From Acidobacteria bacterium RIFCSPLOWO2_12_FULL_65_11 (GTDB taxonomy: Bacteria > Acidobacteriota > Vicinamibacteria > Vicinamibacterales > CAVVIG01), in the NCBI GenBank assembly GCA_001767495.1, contig MELA01000146.1:5122-42975 (forward strand): a DNA stretch of 37,854 nt. The letters run 5' to 3'. Positions 8,904 through 22,466 of this stretch are shown one piece after another (positions within the stretch are counted from its first letter, which is position 1; the number at the start of each line of letters is the position of its first letter). Under the pieces are notes generated by a model that saw only the letters and a program-made list of their open reading frames with translations, was not told the origin of the DNA and did no database searches. A program made the position numbers and the translations under genes.

Positions 8904-9004
8904 GGTCCGCCTAAAGGCGGACACTACACATGACCGCCGACTGTCGACTGTCGACTTCACACGTCCCTCGCTTTCGCAAACGTAGTGTCCGCCTTCAGGC
9001 GGAC
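8904..9004. repeat. Two REP-like palindromes in inverted orientation
   Basis: ggtccgcctaaaggcggacactacac at 8904; cgtagtgtccgccttcaggcggac at 8981. Confidence 0.85.
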
Positions 9005-9879
9005 GTCAACAAAGCCAGACCCTCCCGCAGTTCCTCGATAACGGCTTCAGACACCGGCATCAGCGGCGAGCGAGGGAAGCCAACGTCGTATCCGGCCAGG
9101 CCAAGCGCCGCTTTCAATCCCGGCACGCCGTAGCCCGATACGAGCAGCTTCGTCAGCGGCAGGATCCGCTGCTGCAGCGCCCGCGCCTCGTCGTGCTGCC
9201 CCGCTTGGGTCAGCGTGAACAGCCGGACGCAGACCTCCGGCGCCACGCAAGAGAGCGCCAGGATGCCGCCCACGGCGCCCAGAGAGAGCGCCGTGTAGAA
9301 GGTGGACGCCGATCCGCTGAGCACGCTGAAGTCGCTCGGTGTCGCGGCCACCAGATCCGAAATCTGCAGCGCGTCGCTCGTCGACTCTTTCATCCCAATG
9401 ATGTTCGGGTGCCTCGCAAGGCGCGCCACGGCGTCGGTCTGGAGGTTGACGCCGGTGAGCGCGGTGAAGTTGTACAGCAGCACCGGGACGGGCGACGCGT
9501 CGGCCACCGCCGTGTAGTGGCGCACGAAGGCCTCGGTCGTCATCTGTTCCTTGTAGAAGCCTGGCGTGCGCACGAGCACCGCGTCCGCGCCAAGCTTCCC
9601 CGCCCGCTTCGCGGCGCCGACGGCCGACCGGGTCGATTCGCGTCCGGTACCGACGATGAAGGTCCGTTTCTTCGGCACGACGTCGCGTGCCGCCGCCATG
9701 ACACGCGACGCTTCGTCTTCGTCGACCAGCACGCCTTCGCCGGTCGATCCGAGGACGACAAAGCCGGTCAGCGGCGTCTTGAGCCAGCGCTTGAGCGCCT
9801 TGCGCAGGCGCGCCGTGTCGGCGCGATCTCTCTCGTCAAACGGAGTCGGAATCGGCGCAAAGACGCCCGTCAGTTTCAT
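8995..9879 (-). CDS. Dihydrodipicolinate synthase/N-acetylneuraminate lyase family protein
   Basis: GVFAPIPTPFDERD, FVVLGSTGEGVLVDEDE, PVPVLLYNFTALTGVNL, NIIGMKESTSD. The stop codon lies in the REP-like element. Confidence 0.92.
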   Translation of the reverse strand: MKLTGVFAPIPTPFDERDRADTARLRKALKRWLKTPLTGFVVLGSTGEGVLVDEDEASRVMAAARDVVPKKRTFIVGTGRESTRSAVGAAKRAGKLGADAVLVRTPGFYKEQMTTEAFVRHYTAVADASPVPVLLYNFTALTGVNLQTDAVARLARHPNIIGMKESTSDALQISDLVAATPSDFSVLSGSASTFYTALSLGAVGGILALSCVAPEVCVRLFTLTQAGQHDEARALQQRILPLTKLLVSGYGVPGLKAALGLAGYDVGFPRSPLMPVSEAVIEELREGLALLTSA

Positions 9880-9907: not shown

Positions 9908-10010
9908 GGTCCGCCTGAAGGCGGACACTACAGATGTTCTCGTGTAGTGTCCGGCTTGAGCCGGACCGTGGGCGTCCGGAAGTTAGGTCCGGCTTGAACC
10001 GGACCCTGCA
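9908..10010. repeat. REP-like cluster: inverted pair plus a degenerate third copy
   Basis: ggtccgcctgaaggcggacactaca (9908), tgtagtgtccggcttgagccggacc (9943), aggtccggcttgaaccggaccctgca (9985). Confidence 0.85.
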
Positions 10011-10953
10011 GCACGAGGTTCAGGCCGAGGACGACGAGGAAGATTGCGGCCGCCGGGGCGAGCAGCCACGGGAAATCGGCGAACGCGCGGACGTTCGACG
10101 CATCGTGCAGCATCGTGCCCCAGCTCGCCATCGGATCCGGGAAGCCGAGCCCGACGTACGAGAGCGTCGCTTCGGCCACGATGAATGCCGGCACGAGCAG
10201 CGTCAGCTCGACGGCGACGAAGCCGCGCGCTGCCGGCAGCAAATGGCGTGCGAGCAGGCGCAGATGCCCGGCGCCAAGCGCCGAAGCGGCGGACGCGTAG
10301 TCGAGCGTGCGCTCCGATCGCACGATGGCGCGCACGCCGCGGGCGATGAACGGCGCGCCGACCACGGCGAAGATGACCGAGAGCAGCAGGAACACGGTGC
10401 TCGGGGCCAGCACGAGCGGCAGCACCGCTCGGAGCGCCAGCACCACATACATCGCGGGTAGGACGATGAGGAAATCGGACGCGCGCATCAGCAGATCGTC
10501 GGTCGCGCCGCCGACATAGCCCGCCATCCCGCCGACTGCCGACCCGATGAGCGTGGCGCCAAGCGCCGCGACCAGCGCGAGCCCGAGCGAGATTCGCGCG
10601 CCGAAGAGCATCCGACTGAACACGTCGCGGCCGTAGCTGTCGGCGCCGACGAGCAGCAGCGGCGCGCGCCCCTCGTCGGCCGACTGGACGAGGCGGCCGC
10701 CGCTCAGCCACGCGAGCGGCACGCGAGCCGAGCGGTCCTCCTCGTAGCGCTGCTCGAGCTGATTGACGAGCGTCCAGCGATAAATAAACGGCCGGTGCCA
10801 CGTCCCATCGTCTCCGCGAACGTGCGGCCGCGTCGGAGGTGCATTCAACAGTCCCCGGAAGGACTGGTCGCCGGCGTGCGGTGCGAGCACTGGTGCGCCC
10901 AGCGCGGCAACGATCGCCACGACAAGAACGGCCAAGCCAACGACGCGTGTCAC
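9928..10953 (-). CDS. ABC transporter permease, DppC/OppC-like
   Basis: [84 protein letters not shown]-terminal tail [17 protein letters not shown] is read from REP-like repeats. Confidence 0.9.
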   Translation of the reverse strand: MTRVVGLAVLVVAIVAALGAPVLAPHAGDQSFRGLLNAPPTRPHVRGDDGTWHRPFIYRWTLVNQLEQRYEEDRSARVPLAWLSGGRLVQSADEGRAPLLLVGADSYGRDVFSRMLFGARISLGLALVAALGATLIGSAVGGMAGYVGGATDDLLMRASDFLIVLPAMYVVLALRAVLPLVLAPSTVFLLLSVIFAVVGAPFIARGVRAIVRSERTLDYASAASALGAGHLRLLARHLLPAARGFVAVELTLLVPAFIVAEATLSYVGLGFPDPMASWGTMLHDASNVRAFADFPWLLAPAAAIFLVVLGLNLVLQGPVQAGPNFRTPTVRLKPDTTREHL

Positions 10954-11038: not shown

Positions 11039-11986
11039 TTACTCACTGACTCGCGGATCCACGAGAGCGAGCGCCGCGTCGGACAGAAGCGTACCGAACG
11101 CCAGGAAGATCGAACCGGCGCCGGCGCACCCGACGACGAGATACACGTCGCGGGCTTGAAGCGCGGCCAGCATCAGGCTGCCCAGGCCAGGCCAGGCGGT
11201 GATGATTTCGACCGCAAACGATCCGCCGAGCAGCGTGCCGACCACCAGGCCGTAGACGGCGGCGACCGGACGCAGACCTGCCTTCAGGGCGTCACGCCAT
11301 ACGACTCGACGCCGCGGCACGCCGCGGGCAAGGGCTGCGAGCACGAAGGGTTGACCCACCACTTCGGCCATGGCCTGGGCGGCCAGCCGCTCGAACATCG
11401 CCGCGAGCGGCAGCGCCAAGGCGAGTGAGGGCACGATGAGATGCTGCAGGAGATCGATCGTGATGCCGCCCGCCGGCGCGCCAGGCGAGCGCATGCCGCC
11501 GATGGGCAGCCACCCGGTGCGCGCGGCCACAAAGACGAGCAACAGAGACGTGAGAAGCGGCGGCATCGACAGCAGGACGAGCGACGCGCCCCGGATCGCG
11601 CCCGCCGGCACGCCCCCACGCCGGCTGCCGGTGAAGACGCCGAGCGGCAGGCCGACGAGCGTGGCTGCGAGGAGTGCGGTCAGCGCGAGGACCGCGGTGT
11701 TGACGGCGCGTTCGGGAATGAGGTCGCCGACCGGGCGGTCGTAAAGGAGCGACCGCCCGAAGTCGAGTCGTGCGGCGCGGGCCAGCCAGTCGCGGTACTG
11801 CTCCCCGAGCGGCCTGTTGAGCCCGAGCCGCTCGCGGGTTTGCTCGATCGTCTCGGGTCGCGCCCCGATGCCGAGCGACTCGGTGGGATAGTCGCCAGGC
11901 GCGGACCACGCGAGCACGAGCGACACCGACGACACGGCAAACACGAGAAAGACCGCAAACGCCAGCCGCCTCAAGATGTAGCGCAA
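11039..11986 (-). CDS. ABC transporter permease, DppB/OppB-like
   Basis: RYILRRLAFAVFLVFAVSSVSLVLAW, ETIEQTRERLGLNRPLGEQYRDWL, LGGSFAVEIITAWPGLGSLMLAALQARD. TTG start at 11986 proposed because the longer track ORF begins in a REP-like element. Confidence 0.85.
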   Translation of the reverse strand: MRYILRRLAFAVFLVFAVSSVSLVLAWSAPGDYPTESLGIGARPETIEQTRERLGLNRPLGEQYRDWLARAARLDFGRSLLYDRPVGDLIPERAVNTAVLALTALLAATLVGLPLGVFTGSRRGGVPAGAIRGASLVLLSMPPLLTSLLLVFVAARTGWLPIGGMRSPGAPAGGITIDLLQHLIVPSLALALPLAAMFERLAAQAMAEVVGQPFVLAALARGVPRRRVVWRDALKAGLRPVAAVYGLVVGTLLGGSFAVEIITAWPGLGSLMLAALQARDVYLVVGCAGAGSIFLAFGTLLSDAALALVDPRVSE

Positions 11987-11989
11987 GAT

Positions 11990-12027
11990 GTAGTGTCCGA
12001 GGATGTAGTGTCCGGCTTCAGCCGGAC
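11990..12027 (+). repeat. Partial plus full REP-like palindrome
   Basis: tgtagtgtccga then gatgtagtgtccggcttcagccggacc. Confidence 0.8.
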
Positions 12028-12033
12028 CCGATG

Positions 12034-13791
12034 TCACGGTGTCACCGCTACCGTGTCCGGCGACCACAGCAATTGCGGCCGCGACACGGCGGGCGTGAGG
12101 TTGGTGACGCGAGAAGATGCTGCGACGTATACGCGAGGCGCTACAAAATAAATGGCCGGCAGGTACTCGGCGAAGATCTTCTGCACCTCGTCGAACAGCC
12201 GTTTCCGCTCGGCCTCGTCGAGCGACGCAATCTGGCGCGTCATCAGCTCGTCGATCCGACGCTCCCAGTCCGTGGCCGGCGCCTTCTGGGCCATGTTCCA
12301 GAAGTGCGCGCTGCCACGACTGAACCAGAAGTCCGGATTGAGGGCCGGGTCGGTGTCGCTCATCAACGCGTTGAAGTAGATCGCCTCGTAATTGACCGTT
12401 CCAATTCGCTCGATGAGCGCGGTGGCGTCGAGCGTGACGACGTCGACCACGAGGCCGATTTTCTTGAGTTCGTCGCGGATGACGTTCGAGCCCCGTTCGA
12501 CCGACGGACGGCCCTTCTGGGTGAGCAGCGTGAAGCGCGCCGGCCGTCCGTTGCCGTCCTCGAGCATGCCGTCACCGTCGCGATCCGACAGCCCGATGGT
12601 CGCAAGCACCTGCTTCGCGCCGTCAAGATCGGCCGACGGCTGGGGAATCCCGGCCCAGTACCATGTCCTGTTGGCCTCGGTGATGGGTCCGTAGACCGGC
12701 ACCCCCGCGCCGAGAAACACCGTGTCGGCGAATGCCTTGCGATCGACCGCCAGCGAAACGGCGCGCCGCAGCTCGTCGCGCTGCAGCCACGCGGCCCGTG
12801 GATCGGCACCGAAAGCGCCAGGCTTGAGGTTGAACCACAGGCTGTCGGGGTTCAGCGCCACACCGAGATCGAAGAGCCTCACGCGCCCCTGGTCGGCCGC
12901 GCGCTTGATGGGCGCGTACGCCTCGGGTGCGATCTCGCTCGTCATCATGTCGATCTGTCCCGCCTCGAGCCGCAACGTCTCCGCGTTCTGGTCGGGGATG
13001 ATCTCGATGGTGATTCGATCGAGGTACGGCAGATCGGTGCCGTCGGCGGCCTTGCGAAAATAGCGCGGGTTGCGATTGAGAATCAGGTGCTGGCCGGGCA
13101 AGTATTCCGTCAGCACGAACGGTCCGAGGCCGACGATCTCGGAGGGCGGCGTCGACAGGCCCCACGCGTTGGCGAACGTGCCGGCCTTGAGCGCCGCGTC
13201 GAGCTTGTGTCGGGGCAGGATCGGCAGGTTGTCGAGCAGGCGAAGGCCCGCGGCAAACGGCGCCGGGAACGTGATCACCACGGTCTGTGGATCGGCTGCG
13301 ACCACGTTGAGCCTCTTGCCGCCCGCTTGCAGGGAATCGGCGAGCGAGCTGCCGGCCTTCTCGTCGTACACCGCGTCGAACGCAAACACCACATCGGCGG
13401 ACGTCAAGGGTTGGCCGTCGGAGAAGACGACACCAGACCGCAGCTTCAGCGTATACCGCAGACCGTCGGGCGAGCGCGTCCAGCTTTCCGCCAGCCACGG
13501 CTCGACCTCCTGCGTCATTTTGTTAATGCGAACGAGCTTGGCCTGGGTGAGGCTCGACACGAGCTCGGTGCTCGAGTCGCGGCCGACAAGGCGGTTGAAC
13601 GAGCGCGGCTCGGTGCGAATCGACGCGACGAGCGTCCCGCCCCGCGGGACGGCCGGCGCTCCGCTGCGTGTCGCGACCGGCGCCGTCGAGGCCGGCGGCG
13701 GTTCCGACCGGCACGCCCCAGTCGCCGCCGCGGCGGCGAGCGCCGCGGCAACGGCGATGATGATCCCGACGTGCTGTGTCTGTCTGGTCAA
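12034..13791 (-). CDS. ABC transporter substrate-binding protein, family 5 (peptide/nickel type), lipoprotein
   Basis: TTG start proposed (MTRQTQHVGIIIAVAAALAAAAATGAC, lipobox); YTLKLRSGVVFSDGQPLTSADVVFAFDAV, LPYLDRITIEIIPDQNAETLRLEAGQIDMM, RRAVSLAVDRKAF. Confidence 0.9.
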   Translation of the reverse strand: MTRQTQHVGIIIAVAAALAAAAATGACRSEPPPASTAPVATRSGAPAVPRGGTLVASIRTEPRSFNRLVGRDSSTELVSSLTQAKLVRINKMTQEVEPWLAESWTRSPDGLRYTLKLRSGVVFSDGQPLTSADVVFAFDAVYDEKAGSSLADSLQAGGKRLNVVAADPQTVVITFPAPFAAGLRLLDNLPILPRHKLDAALKAGTFANAWGLSTPPSEIVGLGPFVLTEYLPGQHLILNRNPRYFRKAADGTDLPYLDRITIEIIPDQNAETLRLEAGQIDMMTSEIAPEAYAPIKRAADQGRVRLFDLGVALNPDSLWFNLKPGAFGADPRAAWLQRDELRRAVSLAVDRKAFADTVFLGAGVPVYGPITEANRTWYWAGIPQPSADLDGAKQVLATIGLSDRDGDGMLEDGNGRPARFTLLTQKGRPSVERGSNVIRDELKKIGLVVDVVTLDATALIERIGTVNYEAIYFNALMSDTDPALNPDFWFSRGSAHFWNMAQKAPATDWERRIDELMTRQIASLDEAERKRLFDEVQKIFAEYLPAIYFVAPRVYVAASSRVTNLTPAVSRPQLLWSPDTVAVTP

Positions 13792-14028
13792 AAGCTGGCC
13801 CACCGGCCAGCAGGCTGGCCGATCAAGATTGTGTGCAAGGCGACTCACCTGTGGGCCTTTGCATGCAAAAGCGGCGAAATCACAGTTCTGACCGTTTGAC
13901 GGCCAGATTGTTGTCCGCCTTCGGACGACGCGGGCGCCACGGACGCGAAGCCATCCTAGTAAATCAAGCCGCTGTTCTGCAATTAGTTACAGCCGTTCAC
14001 TCGCTCTAAATCTGAGCCGTCTGGGGAC

Positions 14029-14043
14029 TGGCACCTCTCCTGC
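14029..14043 (+). promoter_or_regulatory. Candidate sigma-54 (-24/-12) promoter
   Basis: TGGCAC-ctctc-CTGC: perfect TGGCAC, GC of the -12 box at canonical spacing (consensus TGGCACG-N4-TTGCW), ~30 bp upstream of the ATG at 14073. Confidence 0.5.
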
Positions 14044-14072
14044 CCTACCCATCGCTGCCGGGAGGCACCGAA

Positions 14073-16073
14073 ATGGCTCCATCCAACCAGACACCTGCGG
14101 ACGGCTTCGCACCTCATATCGGCCGCAGCATCTCGTTAGACCATGCCGCTCAATTCTTGGGCGTCTCGCGCCGAACCATATATAACCGCATCCGGGAAGG
14201 CCGGCTCCGGACAGTCCGGACGATTGGCGGCAGCCAGCGCGTCCTGCTCGATTCGGTGGAACAGCTGCAAGCGCAGATGCGTGCCGCGCTTCCTCCGCCA
14301 CGGACCGACAAACGCGGTTCGGTCGTCGGGGCCCTCGCCCTGGTGCTCTGGTGCGCCGCGGCCGCGGCGCCGGCCGACGCGCAGCCCCGCGCGCATCGCG
14401 CGCGTCTGAGCGCCGACCTCGCGGACCATCTCGCCGCCGGCTCGCAGACCATCAACGTCATCGTCCACGGCGACAAAGCGACGGTTGACGCGCTCGCCAC
14501 CCGGTACAACCTGACGGTCGGGCGCCACCTGCGGAGCGGCGGCGTTCTGCGCGTGACGGCCGGCCAACTGGCCGCGCTGCAAGCGGACGACACGGTCGAT
14601 CATCTGTCCGGCGACATTCGCCTGCGATCGACAGCCGACGTGACGGCCGAGAGTATTGGCGCCGATCAGGTGTGGGCCGGCGTGGGCGACCTGCCGGCGC
14701 TCTCTGGCGCGGGGGTTGGCGTCGCCGTCATCGACTCGGGCATCGACACGCGGCACAGCGCGCTGAGGAATCGGGTGGTCGCGTCGGTGGACTTCACGGG
14801 AGGCAGCGGTGGAGACCTCTACGGGCACGGCACGCACGTGGCGTCGGTCATCGCCGGCCAGATCGGACGCACGTTCGACACGCGCGAGTACCAGGGCATC
14901 GCGTCGGGGGCGCACCTCATCGACCTGCGCGCGCTTGACGACGATGGGTCGGGGTATGCGAGCGATGTGATCGAGGCAATCGACTGGGCGATCGCGCACC
15001 GGCGGCAGTTCAACATCCGCGTCATCAACCTGTCGCTCGGGGGGCCCGTGCTGCAGCCGTTCCGCGACGATCCGTTGTGCGAGGCCGTCGAGCGCGCGGT
15101 CCGGGTCGGCATTGTCGTCGTGGCGGCGGCCGGGAATTTCGGCAAGACCGAGGACGGGAAGGTTGTGTATGGCGGCATCACGTCGCCGGCCAACAGTCCG
15201 TATGCGATCGCGGTGGGGGCGGTGGACACGCACGGGACGCCTCAGCGGTCCGACGACACGATAGCGAGCTACAGCTCGCGGGGGCCGACGCGGTACGACC
15301 TCATCATCAAGCCCGATCTGTCGGCACCCGGGAGCCACATCGCCGGGGCGGAGGCGGCCGGCTCGTATCTGGCGCTCTCGCATCCCGAGCGGCACGTGAC
15401 CGGGAGCGGGGCGAATGCGTACATCCAGTTGTCGGGGACGAGCCAAGCGGCCGCGGTCACGAGTGGCGCGGTGGCGCTGCTGCTGGACGCACGCTCGAAT
15501 CTTCAGCCGGGCGAGACGAAGGCGGTCTTGCAGTTGACGAGTTCTTTCGTGGTCTCAACCGGCGTGCTCACGGCTGGCGCCGGCAGCTTGAACGTACTTG
15601 CAGCGGCACACTTCGTAGAAAGCAATCTCAGAGGATTACTTCCAGCAACAGAGATATCTGGTGAGCCTTCAACGCCCAGCGGTGTCCTCACCACGTACTC
15701 CCCAACGGGCCAACAACTTCTAGCCGGACAGTCAATCAATTGGTCTGGCTCGAAGGTTCGATCGAGCTCGGTTGTGTGGTCGGGTTCCATTATCCGATCT
15801 GACTCAGCAGTTCGGTCCGTTTCAGTCGCTTGGCCCAGTTTGCCGGTCGGCGGGTCGCGGATGCTGTACATGAATGGCTCGGGCTTCTCGCCGGGATCGC
15901 ACATTAGGTCCGGCTCTCTGTTCGGCGATGACTCCATCGTGTGGTCCGGCTCCCTGTTCGGCGATGACTCCATCGTGTGGTCCGGCTCCCTGTTTGGCGA
16001 TGACTCCATCGTGTGGTCCGGCTCCCTGTTTGGCGATGACTCCATCGTGTGGTCCGGCTCTGTGGAGGACTGA
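14073..16073 (+). CDS. HTH-TM-S8 subtilisin-like serine peptidase with C-terminal tandem repeats
   Basis: SD gggagg; HTH SISLDHAAQFLGVSRRTIYNRIREGRLRTVRTIGGSQRVLLDSVEQL; hydrophobic SVVGALALVLWCAAAAAPADAQ; S8 triad regions GVAVIDSGIDTRHS, GHGTHVASVIAG, QLSGTSQAAAVTSG; C-terminal SGSLFGDDSIVW x4. Confidence 0.9.
   Translation: MAPSNQTPADGFAPHIGRSISLDHAAQFLGVSRRTIYNRIREGRLRTVRTIGGSQRVLLDSVEQLQAQMRAALPPPRTDKRGSVVGALALVLWCAAAAAPADAQPRAHRARLSADLADHLAAGSQTINVIVHGDKATVDALATRYNLTVGRHLRSGGVLRVTAGQLAALQADDTVDHLSGDIRLRSTADVTAESIGADQVWAGVGDLPALSGAGVGVAVIDSGIDTRHSALRNRVVASVDFTGGSGGDLYGHGTHVASVIAGQIGRTFDTREYQGIASGAHLIDLRALDDDGSGYASDVIEAIDWAIAHRRQFNIRVINLSLGGPVLQPFRDDPLCEAVERAVRVGIVVVAAAGNFGKTEDGKVVYGGITSPANSPYAIAVGAVDTHGTPQRSDDTIASYSSRGPTRYDLIIKPDLSAPGSHIAGAEAAGSYLALSHPERHVTGSGANAYIQLSGTSQAAAVTSGAVALLLDARSNLQPGETKAVLQLTSSFVVSTGVLTAGAGSLNVLAAAHFVESNLRGLLPATEISGEPSTPSGVLTTYSPTGQQLLAGQSINWSGSKVRSSSVVWSGSIIRSDSAVRSVSVAWPSLPVGGSRMLYMNGSGFSPGSHIRSGSLFGDDSIVWSGSLFGDDSIVWSGSLFGDDSIVWSGSLFGDDSIVWSGSVED
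15909..16052 (+). repeat. Four tandem 36-bp units encoding SGSLFGDDSIVW
   Basis: Units at 15909, 15945, 15981, 16017, nearly identical (tct/tcc and ttc/ttt synonymous changes); degenerate relatives upstream (WSGSKVRSSSVVWSGSIIRSDS). Confidence 0.95.
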
Positions 16074-16127
16074 GGAACAGCCGAAACAAAGACAAGCCGC
16101 TGAGTTAACAACTACTTAGGAGGCGCG

Positions 16128-16154
16128 ATGCAGAAGATCATTGTTTGGGACTAA
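16128..16154 (+). CDS. Candidate 8-codon ORF MQKIIVWD (leader or signalling peptide)
   Basis: ATG CAG AAG ATC ATT GTT TGG GAC TAA; perfect AGGAGG at 16118-16123, 4 nt before the ATG; ends 26 nt before the next gene's GTG start. Confidence 0.4.
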   Translation: MQKIIVWD

Positions 16155-16180
16155 TCGACCGATAATAACGATCGCAACCC

Positions 16181-18100
16181 GTGCCTCTCACCTTGGGTTT
16201 AACGCGATTCGGCCGAGCGTACCTGTCGGCAGTAGCACTCATGGGATTCCTCGTGATCGGGGAATCCCTGATTCACTTGTACCGCGTTCCTATAGGCACG
16301 GAATGGCTCTTTCTCGCTTTCCTTACGCTGATCAGTGGATCGGCGTCAATCGAGCTACCTCGCTCTAACGTCTCCATTTCTATTTCAGAGGCGTTCGTCT
16401 TCACCGCCGTGCTCCTCTACGGGCCGGCCGCGGGCACTCTCACTGTTGCTCTCGATGGATTGGTGATCTCCTTTTGGATCGCCAAGCGGCGACCGGAAGC
16501 CTACAGAGCGCTGTTCAACATAGCAGCACCTGCCCTGTCGGCCTGGTGCTCCTCCAAGCTGTTTTTCTATGTTTCAGGAATCGAGCCTCTGGCTGAGCGA
16601 CCCGCATCCCTGGACGAGATTCTTCCAGCGCTGGTGCTCTTCGCGGTGACTTATTTCGGCCTGAACAGCGGCCTGATAGCTTCCATGATCGCTTTCCAGC
16701 GACGCGCGAATCCATTCCAGGTCTGGCGCAGTGGCTTCATGTGGTTATCCCTGAACTATTTCTGTGGTGCCTCTGTCGCGGTCCTCCTCGTTGGCTACAA
16801 CCGTACGATCGATCTCAAATTCATCGGGCTTGTCGTACCTCTCCTACTCGTCTTGTACTTTACCTTCAAGACTTCGATGCAGCGGGTGGAAGACGCGAAC
16901 CAGCATCTCGATCAAATGAACTCGCTCTATCTTTCAACGATCGAGACTCTAGCGATGGCGATCGACGCGAGAGATCAAATAACGCACGGACATATTAGGA
17001 GAGTTCAAGCTTACGCTGTCGGCTTGGCCAGACAAGTGGGCGTGCCTGATGAGAACTTCATTAAGGCAATCGAGGCCGCCGCCTTGCTTCATGACATGGG
17101 GAAGCTCGCTGTGCCTGAGCACATCCTCAATAAACCGGGGAAGCTGACGTCAATTGAATATGAACAAATGAAGCTGCATGTGAAGGTTGGCGCGGACATT
17201 CTCTCGGCGATTGACTTCCCGTACCCAGTTGTCCCAATCGTGAGGCACCATCACGAGAATTGGGATGGAACGGGTTATCCGACGGGCTTGAAGGGCACCG
17301 ACATCCCGATCGGTGCCCGCATTCTGTCGGTCGTTGACTGCTTCGATGCTCTCACGTCCGATCGCCCTTATCGCCCCAGTCTTTCGGACGATGATGCACT
17401 ACAGATACTGATGCAGCGTCGTGGGAACATGTACGATCCGTCGATCGTGGACACCTTCGCCCGCGTACACAAAGACATTGCTCCAGAAGCCCTCCCTCCT
17501 GGACCGCCACGAGATGCGCTCAATGAAATCACAACCGCCAGGCGAGCCGCCACCCTTCCGATCGACGTTGCCAGACGGACCGCCAGTTCAACTGCTGTCC
17601 ATAAGACACTTACAGCCCGCCCGCCATTAGACGCACTGGTCGGTGGCGCCAAGGCAAGCTGCATGGGCGACGCACTTGCCCAGCGTCTCAGACAGTTGAT
17701 TCCCTTTTCACTTTGCGTTCTCTATTTGAACGATCCGGAGGCCGCCGAATTGGAAGCCGTGCAGGTTACAGGCAAAGACTGGTCGTTCCTTAAGGGGAGT
17801 CGGATTCCGATCGGTCAGCGGTTGAGTGGGTGGGTAGCGGCGAATCGCCGAACAATTGTCAACTCGGACCCAATGCTTGACTTGGGTGACGTGGCACGGG
17901 TGGTTCATCCACTACTACTAAGCTGCTTGAGTACTCCGGTCGTCCTCGACGATCAACTCATTGGAGTCCTTACACTCCATTCGGAAGTTGAGGACGGTTT
18001 CAGCGATGAGCACGGCTACGTCATTGAAGTCATTGCAGAGCAAGTCGCTGAAACGTTCAAGCTCGCCGATCTTAAACACACCGCTCATCAGGGTCGCTGA
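16181..18100 (+). CDS. Membrane HD-GYP domain protein with C-terminal GAF-like domain
   Basis: Multi-TM N-terminus (MASE-like by impression); HGHIRRVQAYAVGLARQVG, AALLHDMGKLAVPEHIL, VRHHHENWDGTGYPTGLKGTDIPIGARILSVVDCFDALTSDRPYR. C-terminal LRQLIPFSLCVLYL...LSGWVAANRRTIVNSDP...VLDDQLIGVLTLHS (GAF-like). GTG start, no clear SD. Confidence 0.92.
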   Translation: MPLTLGLTRFGRAYLSAVALMGFLVIGESLIHLYRVPIGTEWLFLAFLTLISGSASIELPRSNVSISISEAFVFTAVLLYGPAAGTLTVALDGLVISFWIAKRRPEAYRALFNIAAPALSAWCSSKLFFYVSGIEPLAERPASLDEILPALVLFAVTYFGLNSGLIASMIAFQRRANPFQVWRSGFMWLSLNYFCGASVAVLLVGYNRTIDLKFIGLVVPLLLVLYFTFKTSMQRVEDANQHLDQMNSLYLSTIETLAMAIDARDQITHGHIRRVQAYAVGLARQVGVPDENFIKAIEAAALLHDMGKLAVPEHILNKPGKLTSIEYEQMKLHVKVGADILSAIDFPYPVVPIVRHHHENWDGTGYPTGLKGTDIPIGARILSVVDCFDALTSDRPYRPSLSDDDALQILMQRRGNMYDPSIVDTFARVHKDIAPEALPPGPPRDALNEITTARRAATLPIDVARRTASSTAVHKTLTARPPLDALVGGAKASCMGDALAQRLRQLIPFSLCVLYLNDPEAAELEAVQVTGKDWSFLKGSRIPIGQRLSGWVAANRRTIVNSDPMLDLGDVARVVHPLLLSCLSTPVVLDDQLIGVLTLHSEVEDGFSDEHGYVIEVIAEQVAETFKLADLKHTAHQGR

Positions 18101-18345
18101 GAGGTGCTCACTTCACTTGCGCGATTGGACGATCGGACACCTGGCATTTCTGATCAGCTGTGCTCGGACCGTTCGCCTCGTATTCATGATGCGATTCTGC
18201 CCAGCTCCGCAGCGACCACCGTCATTTCGAACATCCGCTCGAAATGTCGTTAAGGATGTCATGAGGTTCCTCCACTTGCGTGCATCTTTGCAGATGCTTA
18301 AGACGACAAGAACATGAGTTGGCTGTGCGTCGGGGAGTAGATGAG

Positions 18346-21090
<2,745 letters not shown>

Positions 21091-21092
21091 TG

Positions 21093-21114
21093 TAGTGTTG
21101 ACTCGTCAACACTA
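21093..21114. repeat. Perfect 10-bp inverted repeat with 2-nt loop; possible divergent REP-like element
   Basis: TAGTGTTGAC-TC-GTCAACACTA directly after the activator stop; same gTAGTGT outer sequence as the other palindromes. Confidence 0.65.
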
Positions 21115-21122
21115 ATCCTGCG

Positions 21123-22466
21123 ATGCCAGAAACTACCACGCCCGCAACCGCCTCCGGCTGGCGCTTGCCGTCCTCTGAAAACAGCCTCCCCGAAGTCCAC
21201 GGCTCCATCCCAGTGCCGGGTGGGGCGGGGTTCTGGCGCAAGATGCTGGCGTTTGCCGGCCCGGGCTATCTGGTGGCCGTCGGCTACATGGACCCGGGCA
21301 ACTGGGCCACCGACCTGGCCGGCGGCGCGCGCTACGGCTACACGCTGCTCTCGGTCATCATGCTCTCCAACCTGATGGCGATCCTGCTGCAGGCGCTCGC
21401 CGCCCGCCTCGGCATCGCGAGCGGCCGCGACCTGGCTCAGGCCTGCCGCGACAGCTACTCGAGGCCGACGACGATCGTGTTGTGGATCCTCTGCGAGATC
21501 GCCATCGCGGCGTGCGACCTGGCAGAAGTCATCGGGGCGGCCATCGCGCTCAACCTGCTGTTCGATCTGCCGCTCCTCTGGGGCGTCATCCTCACCGCCC
21601 TCGACGTCCTCATCGTGCTGTTCCTGCAGCACCGCGGCTTCCGCTACGTCGAGTCGCTCGTCGTCGGCTTGATCGTCCTGATTGCCGGTTCGTTTGCCGT
21701 CGAGCTGTGGCTGGCGCGCCCCGACGCGGCGGGCATCGCTTTCGGTTTCGTCCCGCAGACGAGCATCCTGCGCGATCCATCGATGCTGTATATCGCCATC
21801 GGCATCCTCGGCGCGACGGTGATGCCGCACAATCTGTACCTGCACTCGTCAATCGTGCAGACGCGCAGGTACGGCGACTCGCACGAGAGCAAGGCCGAAG
21901 CGATAAAGTTCGCGACCATCGACTCGAGCTTCGCGCTGATGTTCGCGCTCTTCATCAACGCCGCCATTCTCATCATGGCGTCGGCCGTCTTCCACGGCAC
22001 CGGCAACCAGGACGTGGCCGACATCGGGGATGCCTACCAGCTGCTCTCCCCGCTGCTCGGGACCACGCTCGCCAGCACGCTCTTCGCGGTGGCGCTGCTC
22101 TGCTCGGGCCAGAACGCGACGCTCACCGGCACGCTCGCCGGCCAGATCGTCATGGAAGGGTTCATCAACATCCGCCTGCGTCCGTGGCTCCGCCGTCTCC
22201 TCACCCGGCTCATCGCCATCATCCCGGCCATCATCGTCATCGCGCTGTACGGCGACGCCGGCACGGGCCCGCTCCTCATCCTCAGCCAGGTGGTGCTCAG
22301 CCTGCAGCTCCCCTTCGCGGTGTTTCCCCTCGTCATGTTCACGAGCGACCGTCATAAAATGGGTGCGTTCGTAACGCCGAAGTGGGTGCAGGCGCTGGCA
22401 TGGACGGTTGCGGTCGTCATCGCCCTGCTCAACGCCTGGCTGCTCTTCCAGACTTTCGCAGGTTGA
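21123..22466 (+). CDS. mntH: Nramp family divalent metal transporter (MntH-like)
   Basis: [40 protein letters not shown]. Confidence 0.92.

Follow-up and report, generated by a model that had tools for sequence, protein, structure and literature searches.

To our knowledge, intracellular peptide quorum sensing has been described almost entirely from Bacillota. The closest described systems belong to the RRNPP(A) group (Rap-Phr, PlcR-PapR and NprR), the peptides of which are imported by Opp. For the Rap systems, pheromones standing in tandem in one propeptide and cut by secreted proteases are known (PMC11343458). At the same time, the grooves of the tetratricopeptide repeat (TPR) superhelix of kinesin light chain recognise short linear motifs of the Trp-acidic type (PMC6214655, PMC5450233). 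The present analysis concerns a block of genes in a 37,854-nt stretch (hereafter, the window) of the 3.55-Mb draft genome of Acidobacteria bacterium RIFCSPLOWO2_12_FULL_65_11 (order Vicinamibacterales; contig MELA01000146.1, positions 5,122–42,975). The block comprises, in rightward order, a sigma-54 promoter, an HTH_17 domain and a subtilase (S8 protease), a mini open reading frame (mini-ORF), a gene for an HD-GYP-GAF protein and a gene for a TPR-containing sigma-54 activator. The conserved mini-ORF of 8–9 codons echoes a repeat of the neighbouring protease, which suggests, by sequence comparison, that Gram-negative bacteria have a peptide-signalling circuit not yet described. Literature searches found neither the system nor the protease tail motif described.

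The mini-ORF and the tail of the neighbouring protease

A preliminary description of the window, made from its sequence alone, noted the presence of the mini-ORF and gave it no role; comparison with related genomes makes it the central feature of the block. Counterparts, ORFs of 7–9 codons, were found in 42 loci, and almost all of them have a strong Shine-Dalgarno (SD) sequence. They follow the S8 gene, except in a few contigs that lack this gene or do not extend to it. Their consensus is M-x-x-[LIV]-I-[IV]-W-G-[DE]-stop with an invariant Trp; since the motif itself guided the search, this invariance is partly a selection effect, which leaves the codon-position contrast unaffected. For the three codons before the Trp, the mean pairwise difference over the 42 loci was 0.41 at the first codon position, 0.016 at the second and 0.55 at the third. 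Because the second position hardly varies and the third does, the mini-ORF, as judged from these substitution patterns, is a translated peptide of 8–9 amino acids under selection and not a site in DNA or RNA. When 162 genomes of the order were scanned for one codon pattern of its C-terminus, 43 matches were obtained versus 1 for the reversed control; by inspection, 31 of the matches were mini-ORFs, 10 belonged to the C-termini of S8 tails, and 2 had apparently occurred by chance. The apparent mini-ORFs of loci L076 and L082 were rejected, being protease C-termini by their coordinates. No known RNA element was matched in Rfam up to E 1 in positions 13700–21200.

The mini-ORF peptide repeats the core of the motif that stands in tandem in the protease tail (D-T-I-V-W-G-D). 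Tails in the mini-ORF loci carry 2–20 Trp motifs with the weighted consensus D-T-I-[VI]-W-G-D, and in L048 the C-terminus of the protease itself equals the mini-peptide sequence, which calls for caution in a draft assembly. In the AlphaFold2 model of the window protease, the predicted local distance difference test (pLDDT) was mostly above 90 for the catalytic domain and about 25 for the last 128 residues. The latter value agrees with, without proving, a chain that has no fixed structure and consists of short linear motifs; at such a pLDDT, a structured solenoid was unsupported as well, low confidence by itself being no proof of disorder. Note that more distant Acidobacteriota (L147, L148 and L153) have an S8 tail of the GLIWG type together with HD-GYP-like genes and a promoter-like site, TGGCAC-N6-TGC; no mini-ORF was found in these three loci.

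The HD-GYP gene comes next in all 40 S8-bearing loci that have a mini-ORF and enough contig, and its start lies mostly 20–80 nt behind the mini-ORF stop. An SD sequence at or below −6 kcal/mol precedes only 7.5% of the HD-GYP starts versus 90% of the mini-ORFs. Because the HD-GYP gene thus lacks an SD sequence of its own and stands close behind the mini-ORF stop, its start is probably supplied by ribosomes that have ended translation of the mini-ORF. A conserved hairpin after the mini-ORF was rejected as a general feature, being restricted to a subset of loci with a mean z of −0.76. The mini-ORF also occurs without an adjoining HD-GYP gene (L157, L220) and in tandem, with four copies in L162 (68-nt period) and two in L220, as if dose mattered. 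The mini-peptide may also act by itself, as these tandem copies, its resemblance to the tail and the contexts in L220 and in the genome G022 (considered below) suggest.

In G022 (locus L157), the family 5 substrate-binding protein (SBP5) gene, a GG-N10-GC promoter sequence, the HTH gene and the mini-ORF (MSRVRRLIIWGD) are kept. The mini-ORF is followed there by a 20-aa ORF, MNVKTQIKAGSDGDTIVWGN (L157:2529–2591, − strand), which ends in DTIVWGN and could encode an exported peptide, and then by genes for an HlyD-family protein and a Peptidase_C39 ABC protein. The G022 activator is on another contig, L247, with NRAMP and universal-stress protein (USP) genes behind it as in the window, and the closest HD-GYP protein of this genome reaches only 38% in the search for an orthologue. 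By synteny, with the join across the contig gap inferred, a gene for a short peptide and exporter genes seem to have taken the place of the protease and HD-GYP genes in G022. No further HlyD/C39 variant was found among 100 relatives or 27 family members.

Organisation and conservation of the block

The block is regulatory and common to dozens of uncultured soil Acidobacteriota, as determined by whole-genome locus retrieval and the tblastn layout. The order divergent SBP5 – HTH – S8 – mini-ORF – HD-GYP – TPR/sigma-54 recurs across several families of the order; the peptide-type importer adjoins 35 of the 38 testable mini-ORF loci, and the TPR activator is present in every one of the 31 in which the contig extends far enough beyond the S8 gene. 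Since related genomes are not independent, such locus counts overstate the number of evolutionary events. A reduced form, with the HTH and protease genes only, is found in L076. All the genes named in the preliminary description are present and co-directional, with a −24/−12 promoter ahead of the first, and the association of S8, HD-GYP and activator genes, the lack of which in related genomes had been named as grounds for abandoning the proposal, holds in dozens of genomes. The interpretation given in that description is, as a whole, partly supported; the divergent peptide-type ABC transporter, the mini-ORF/tail likeness and the peptide-exporter variant go beyond it. The features are listed in Table 1. 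In the window, a dihydrodipicolinate-synthase (DHDPS)-family gene (8995–9879, − strand) follows the permease genes of the divergent operon, and NRAMP and USP genes lie downstream of the activator gene.

Table 1 Features of the block and of the divergent operon, in window coordinates
Feature	Position	Strand	Basis or remark
ABC transporter permease, divergent operon	9928..10953	−	PF00528, E 2.6e-18
ABC transporter permease, divergent operon	11039..12067	−	PF00528, E 1.3e-28
SBP5 (oligopeptide/dipeptide-type) binding protein, divergent	12034..13848	−	PF00496, E 2.5e-74
Palindrome TTTGCATGCAAA, putative enhancer (upstream activating sequence)	13858..13869		Core conservation, pairing with promoter
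Sigma-54 −24/−12 promoter TGGCACCTCTCCTGC, GG-N10-GC	14029..14043	+	Beats 200 shuffles of its region
HTH_17 (excisionase/BldC-like) DNA-binding domain	14133..14276	+	PF12728; gene start here ATG 14073
Secreted S8 subtilase, signal-peptide-like N-terminus	14278..16073	+	PF00082; open frame from 14073; N-termini of relatives
C-terminal tail with W-motif repeats, 4 × SLFGDDSIVWSG at end	15696..16070	+	Sequence; consensus over loci
Shine-Dalgarno AGGAGG of mini-ORF	16118..16123	+	Sequence; SD strength comparison
Mini-ORF MQKIIVWD	16128..16154	+	42 loci, codon-position statistics
CCGATA after mini-ORF stop	16159..16164	+	Within 24 nt of stop in 19/42 loci, varying frame
Membrane HD-GYP-GAF protein, start without SD	16181..18100	+	HD_5 (E 1e-42), GAF, membrane N-terminus (weak MASE9)
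TPR-AAA+-Fis sigma-54 activator	18346..21090	+	Profile matches; alternative start GTG 18280

A single ORF of the window (14073–16073, + strand) contains the HTH_17 domain (aa 21–68), the Peptidase_S8 domain (aa 212–490, E 1.5e-46) and the C-terminal repeats, with a hydrophobic segment between the HTH and protease parts, and it had been described as a membrane HTH-protease. This is not the architecture of the family. In all intact relatives with an HTH, the latter is a separate ORF, by frame or by stop. It terminates either ahead of the S8 gene or within the first part of that gene, and the protease has a start of its own and a signal-peptide-like N-terminus that immediately precedes the HRARLS motif; read-through of both parts occurs only in the window and in the damaged copy in L074. 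The separate genes rule out the fused membrane protease as a general architecture, and the fusion in the window looks derived by loss of a short spacer; the internal ATG at 14278 would provide the window protease with its own signal peptide. The anti-phage IteS and other named S8 families gave matches only far below the cut-off. A second HTH_17 gene was observed just behind the activator gene, and convergent to it, in L061, L065, L067, L068, L071 and L247.

The HD-GYP protein of the window has the LHDxGK and HHExWDGxGYP motifs, retained as LHDxGK and HHExW[DN]GxGYP in all 41 HD-GYP proteins of the loci. By its HD and HHExxDGxGYP motifs, the protein fits a cyclic di-GMP (c-di-GMP) phosphodiesterase, for which hydrolysis is predicted.

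The frame of the activator (18280–21090, + strand) gave profile matches to TPR (Pfam TPR_MalT/TPR_12), Sigma54_activat (PF00158, AAA+; E 2e-66) and HTH_8. The start is probably ATG 18346, because orthologues align only from residue 23, giving a protein of 914 aa with RRGAFTGA and the Walker A sequence GESGTGK; GAFTGA is found in 12 of the 14 segments of relatives with a Walker A motif. No named NCBIfam regulator reaches the cut-off for this protein. The TPR domain was modelled by AlphaFold2 as a long superhelix (pLDDT 90), with R139, N237, T317 and R416 among its conserved polar residues. In the Foldseek search, the Rap-pheromone complexes 8rsv and 4gyo had the top target-normalised TM-scores among the matches listed (0.65–0.69), and kinesin light chain TPRs were among the sequence matches of the domain.

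A counterpart of the promoter lies 60–130 nt ahead of the HTH domain in nearly all HTH-bearing relatives. The palindrome TTTGCRYGCAAA was found in 28 of 58 intergenic regions when up to one mismatch in its core was allowed, against a mean of 1.7 for shuffled sequence, and it mostly stands 159–172 nt upstream of the −24 element. The exact palindrome-promoter pair was found at this locus only; 7 of 60 genomes have it, each in one copy, and the reversed control gave 1 match. Because the linked activator has a Fis-type HTH and rpoN is present in the genome, autoregulation of the block, as suggested in the preliminary description, is plausible and the simplest reading, with the activator presumed to bind at the palindrome. 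Additionally, a second inverted-repeat motif, GGCCA-N6-TGGCC, was observed in about 18 SBP5-HTH intergenic regions.

Proposed circuit and rival explanations

We tentatively propose, as quite possible, that the locus is a self-inducing peptide-response circuit resembling Rap/Phr-Opp (RRNPP) and built from other parts. The exported protease, alone or with other proteases, would shed its tail motifs as short peptides, which would re-enter the cytoplasm via the SBP5/permease system. These peptides and the cytoplasmic mini-peptide would dock on the concave side of the TPR superhelix and gate sigma-54 autoinduction; one of them might define the basal state, and the other might signal the presence of exported protease or of neighbouring cells. 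From the palindrome, the activator would open the −24/−12 promoter, so that the block amplifies itself, and the HD-GYP protein, translated via coupling to the mini-ORF, would lower c-di-GMP as one output. The bolder statement, namely that the subtilase tail carries many copies of its own signal, that a gene of 24–27 coding bases encodes the cytoplasmic version and that the TPR-sigma-54 activator reads both, would mean that a Gram-negative phylum uses peptide communication like that of Rap/Phr, and would place the mini-ORF among the shortest protein-coding genes known to be conserved; we consider it possible, with more doubt than the general proposal. In favour of the proposed circuit are the selected mini-ORF with its strong SD sequence, the core that it has in common with a tail predicted to be disordered, the replacement in G022, the tandem mini-ORFs, the adjoining importer genes and TPR activator, the resemblance of the TPR fold to Rap-pheromone complexes, the promoter-palindrome pair specific to the locus, and the tandem propeptides of Rap systems.

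Several observations weigh against the proposed circuit. The mini-ORF has no export signal, and genome by genome the mini-peptide and the tail motif do not closely co-vary. The reduced forms L087–L090 have the protease, tail and activator without HD-GYP, HTH or mini-ORF. The likeness of the TPR fold is generic, since LGN, APC5 and OGT match too, and only one genome, a draft with a contig gap, shows the exporter variant.

The main rival, which we judge rather unlikely, treats the mini-ORF as a cis-acting arrest leader of the HD-GYP gene. Through its conserved C-terminus, the mini-peptide would stall the translating ribosome, perhaps in response to tryptophan or a small molecule, and would thereby control re-initiation at the HD-GYP start without an SD sequence. 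This rival stays alive because the HD-GYP start is probably coupled to the mini-ORF: the invariable succession of the two genes in S8-bearing loci, the short distance between them and the hairpins of some loci would suit it, as would conservation at the C-terminus, known for the arrest peptides TnaC (PMC8429421) and ErmBL (PMC4935803). The mini-ORFs of L157 and L220 without an adjoining HD-GYP gene and the tandem copies in L162 and L220 speak against a leader. A leader would also leave unexplained both the core that mini-peptide and tail have in common and the peptide of G022 that ends in DTIVWGN; the likeness of mini-peptide and tail would then be coincidence or shared ancestry. An unlikely alternative in our estimate, in which the mini-peptide mimics the tail within the cytoplasm, does take this likeness into account. 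By competing for a tail-binding partner (the TPR activator, the GAF domain or an export chaperone), the mimic would let unexported protease feed back on its own transcription, a form of secretion sensing without extracellular signal or re-import. The tail core of the mini-peptide, its lack of an export signal and the possible co-transcription of the activator gene and mini-ORF with the protease gene fit such a mimic, but no role is left for the adjacent peptide importer or for the exporter variant of G022.

The C39-ABC and HlyD genes of that variant would be accommodated if the mini-peptide and tail units were exported, possibly modified, and acted on competitors like a bacteriocin or a ribosomally synthesised and post-translationally modified peptide (RiPP), with the activator controlling production. 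Some RiPPs have very short precursors. However, no modification or immunity gene was recognised in the block, and the tail motif is also found in S8 paralogues outside it; we consider this explanation improbable. Least credible is the proposal of the preliminary description that a membrane HTH-protease couples proteolysis directly to transcription; the open frame of the window and its hydrophobic segment would allow it, but the separate frames in all intact HTH-bearing relatives oppose it, and the fusion, because it is derived, would not be a general mechanism.

If the self-inducing peptide circuit is real, its TPR/sigma-54 version in a dominant and poorly understood soil phylum would widen the range of peptide quorum sensing, and extracellular proteolysis would be tied to c-di-GMP control. 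Whatever the mechanism, an 8–9-codon gene below the usual length limits of gene finders is conserved in sequence over dozens of genomes, and its likeness to the neighbouring protease tail yields a short list of direct tests.

Comparison with described systems

Arrest and leader peptides (TnaC, ErmBL and ErmCL) share with the mini-ORF a short ORF with a conserved C-terminus before a gene without an SD sequence, but the tandem and detached copies found here, and the core in common with a protein tail, set the mini-ORF apart. The activator resembles the sigma-54 enhancer-binding proteins of the NorR and NtrC class in its GAFTGA AAA+ domain, Fis-type HTH, −24/−12 promoter and distant upstream site; unlike in this class, the sensor is a long TPR superhelix, and the protein corresponds to no named NCBIfam regulator at the cut-off. 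Kinesin light chain is eukaryotic, and the combination of TPR and W-acidic motif makes it an analogy only, with peptide binding putative here.

With the RRNPP(A) systems, the locus shares a short peptide gene near a candidate TPR receptor and a TPR fold resembling the Rap-pheromone complexes, and genes for a putative peptide-type ABC importer are adjacent; secreted S8 proteases (Epr and Vpr) mature the propeptides there (PMC11343458), and a subtilase is part of the block here. In contrast to the receptor of 250–500 aa by which that group is recognised (PMC10075063), the locus encodes a TPR-AAA+-Fis activator of 914 aa; instead of an adjacent propeptide with an export signal, it has an 8–9-codon ORF without export signal or leader, and its host belongs to a Gram-negative phylum. 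The tail motif does sit on a protein with a signal-peptide-like N-terminus, its copies being carried by the protease itself. Because of the size of the receptor and the lack of a propeptide with an export signal, the locus is not filed as a member of RRNPP, which is nevertheless the described system that it would most resemble in its working.
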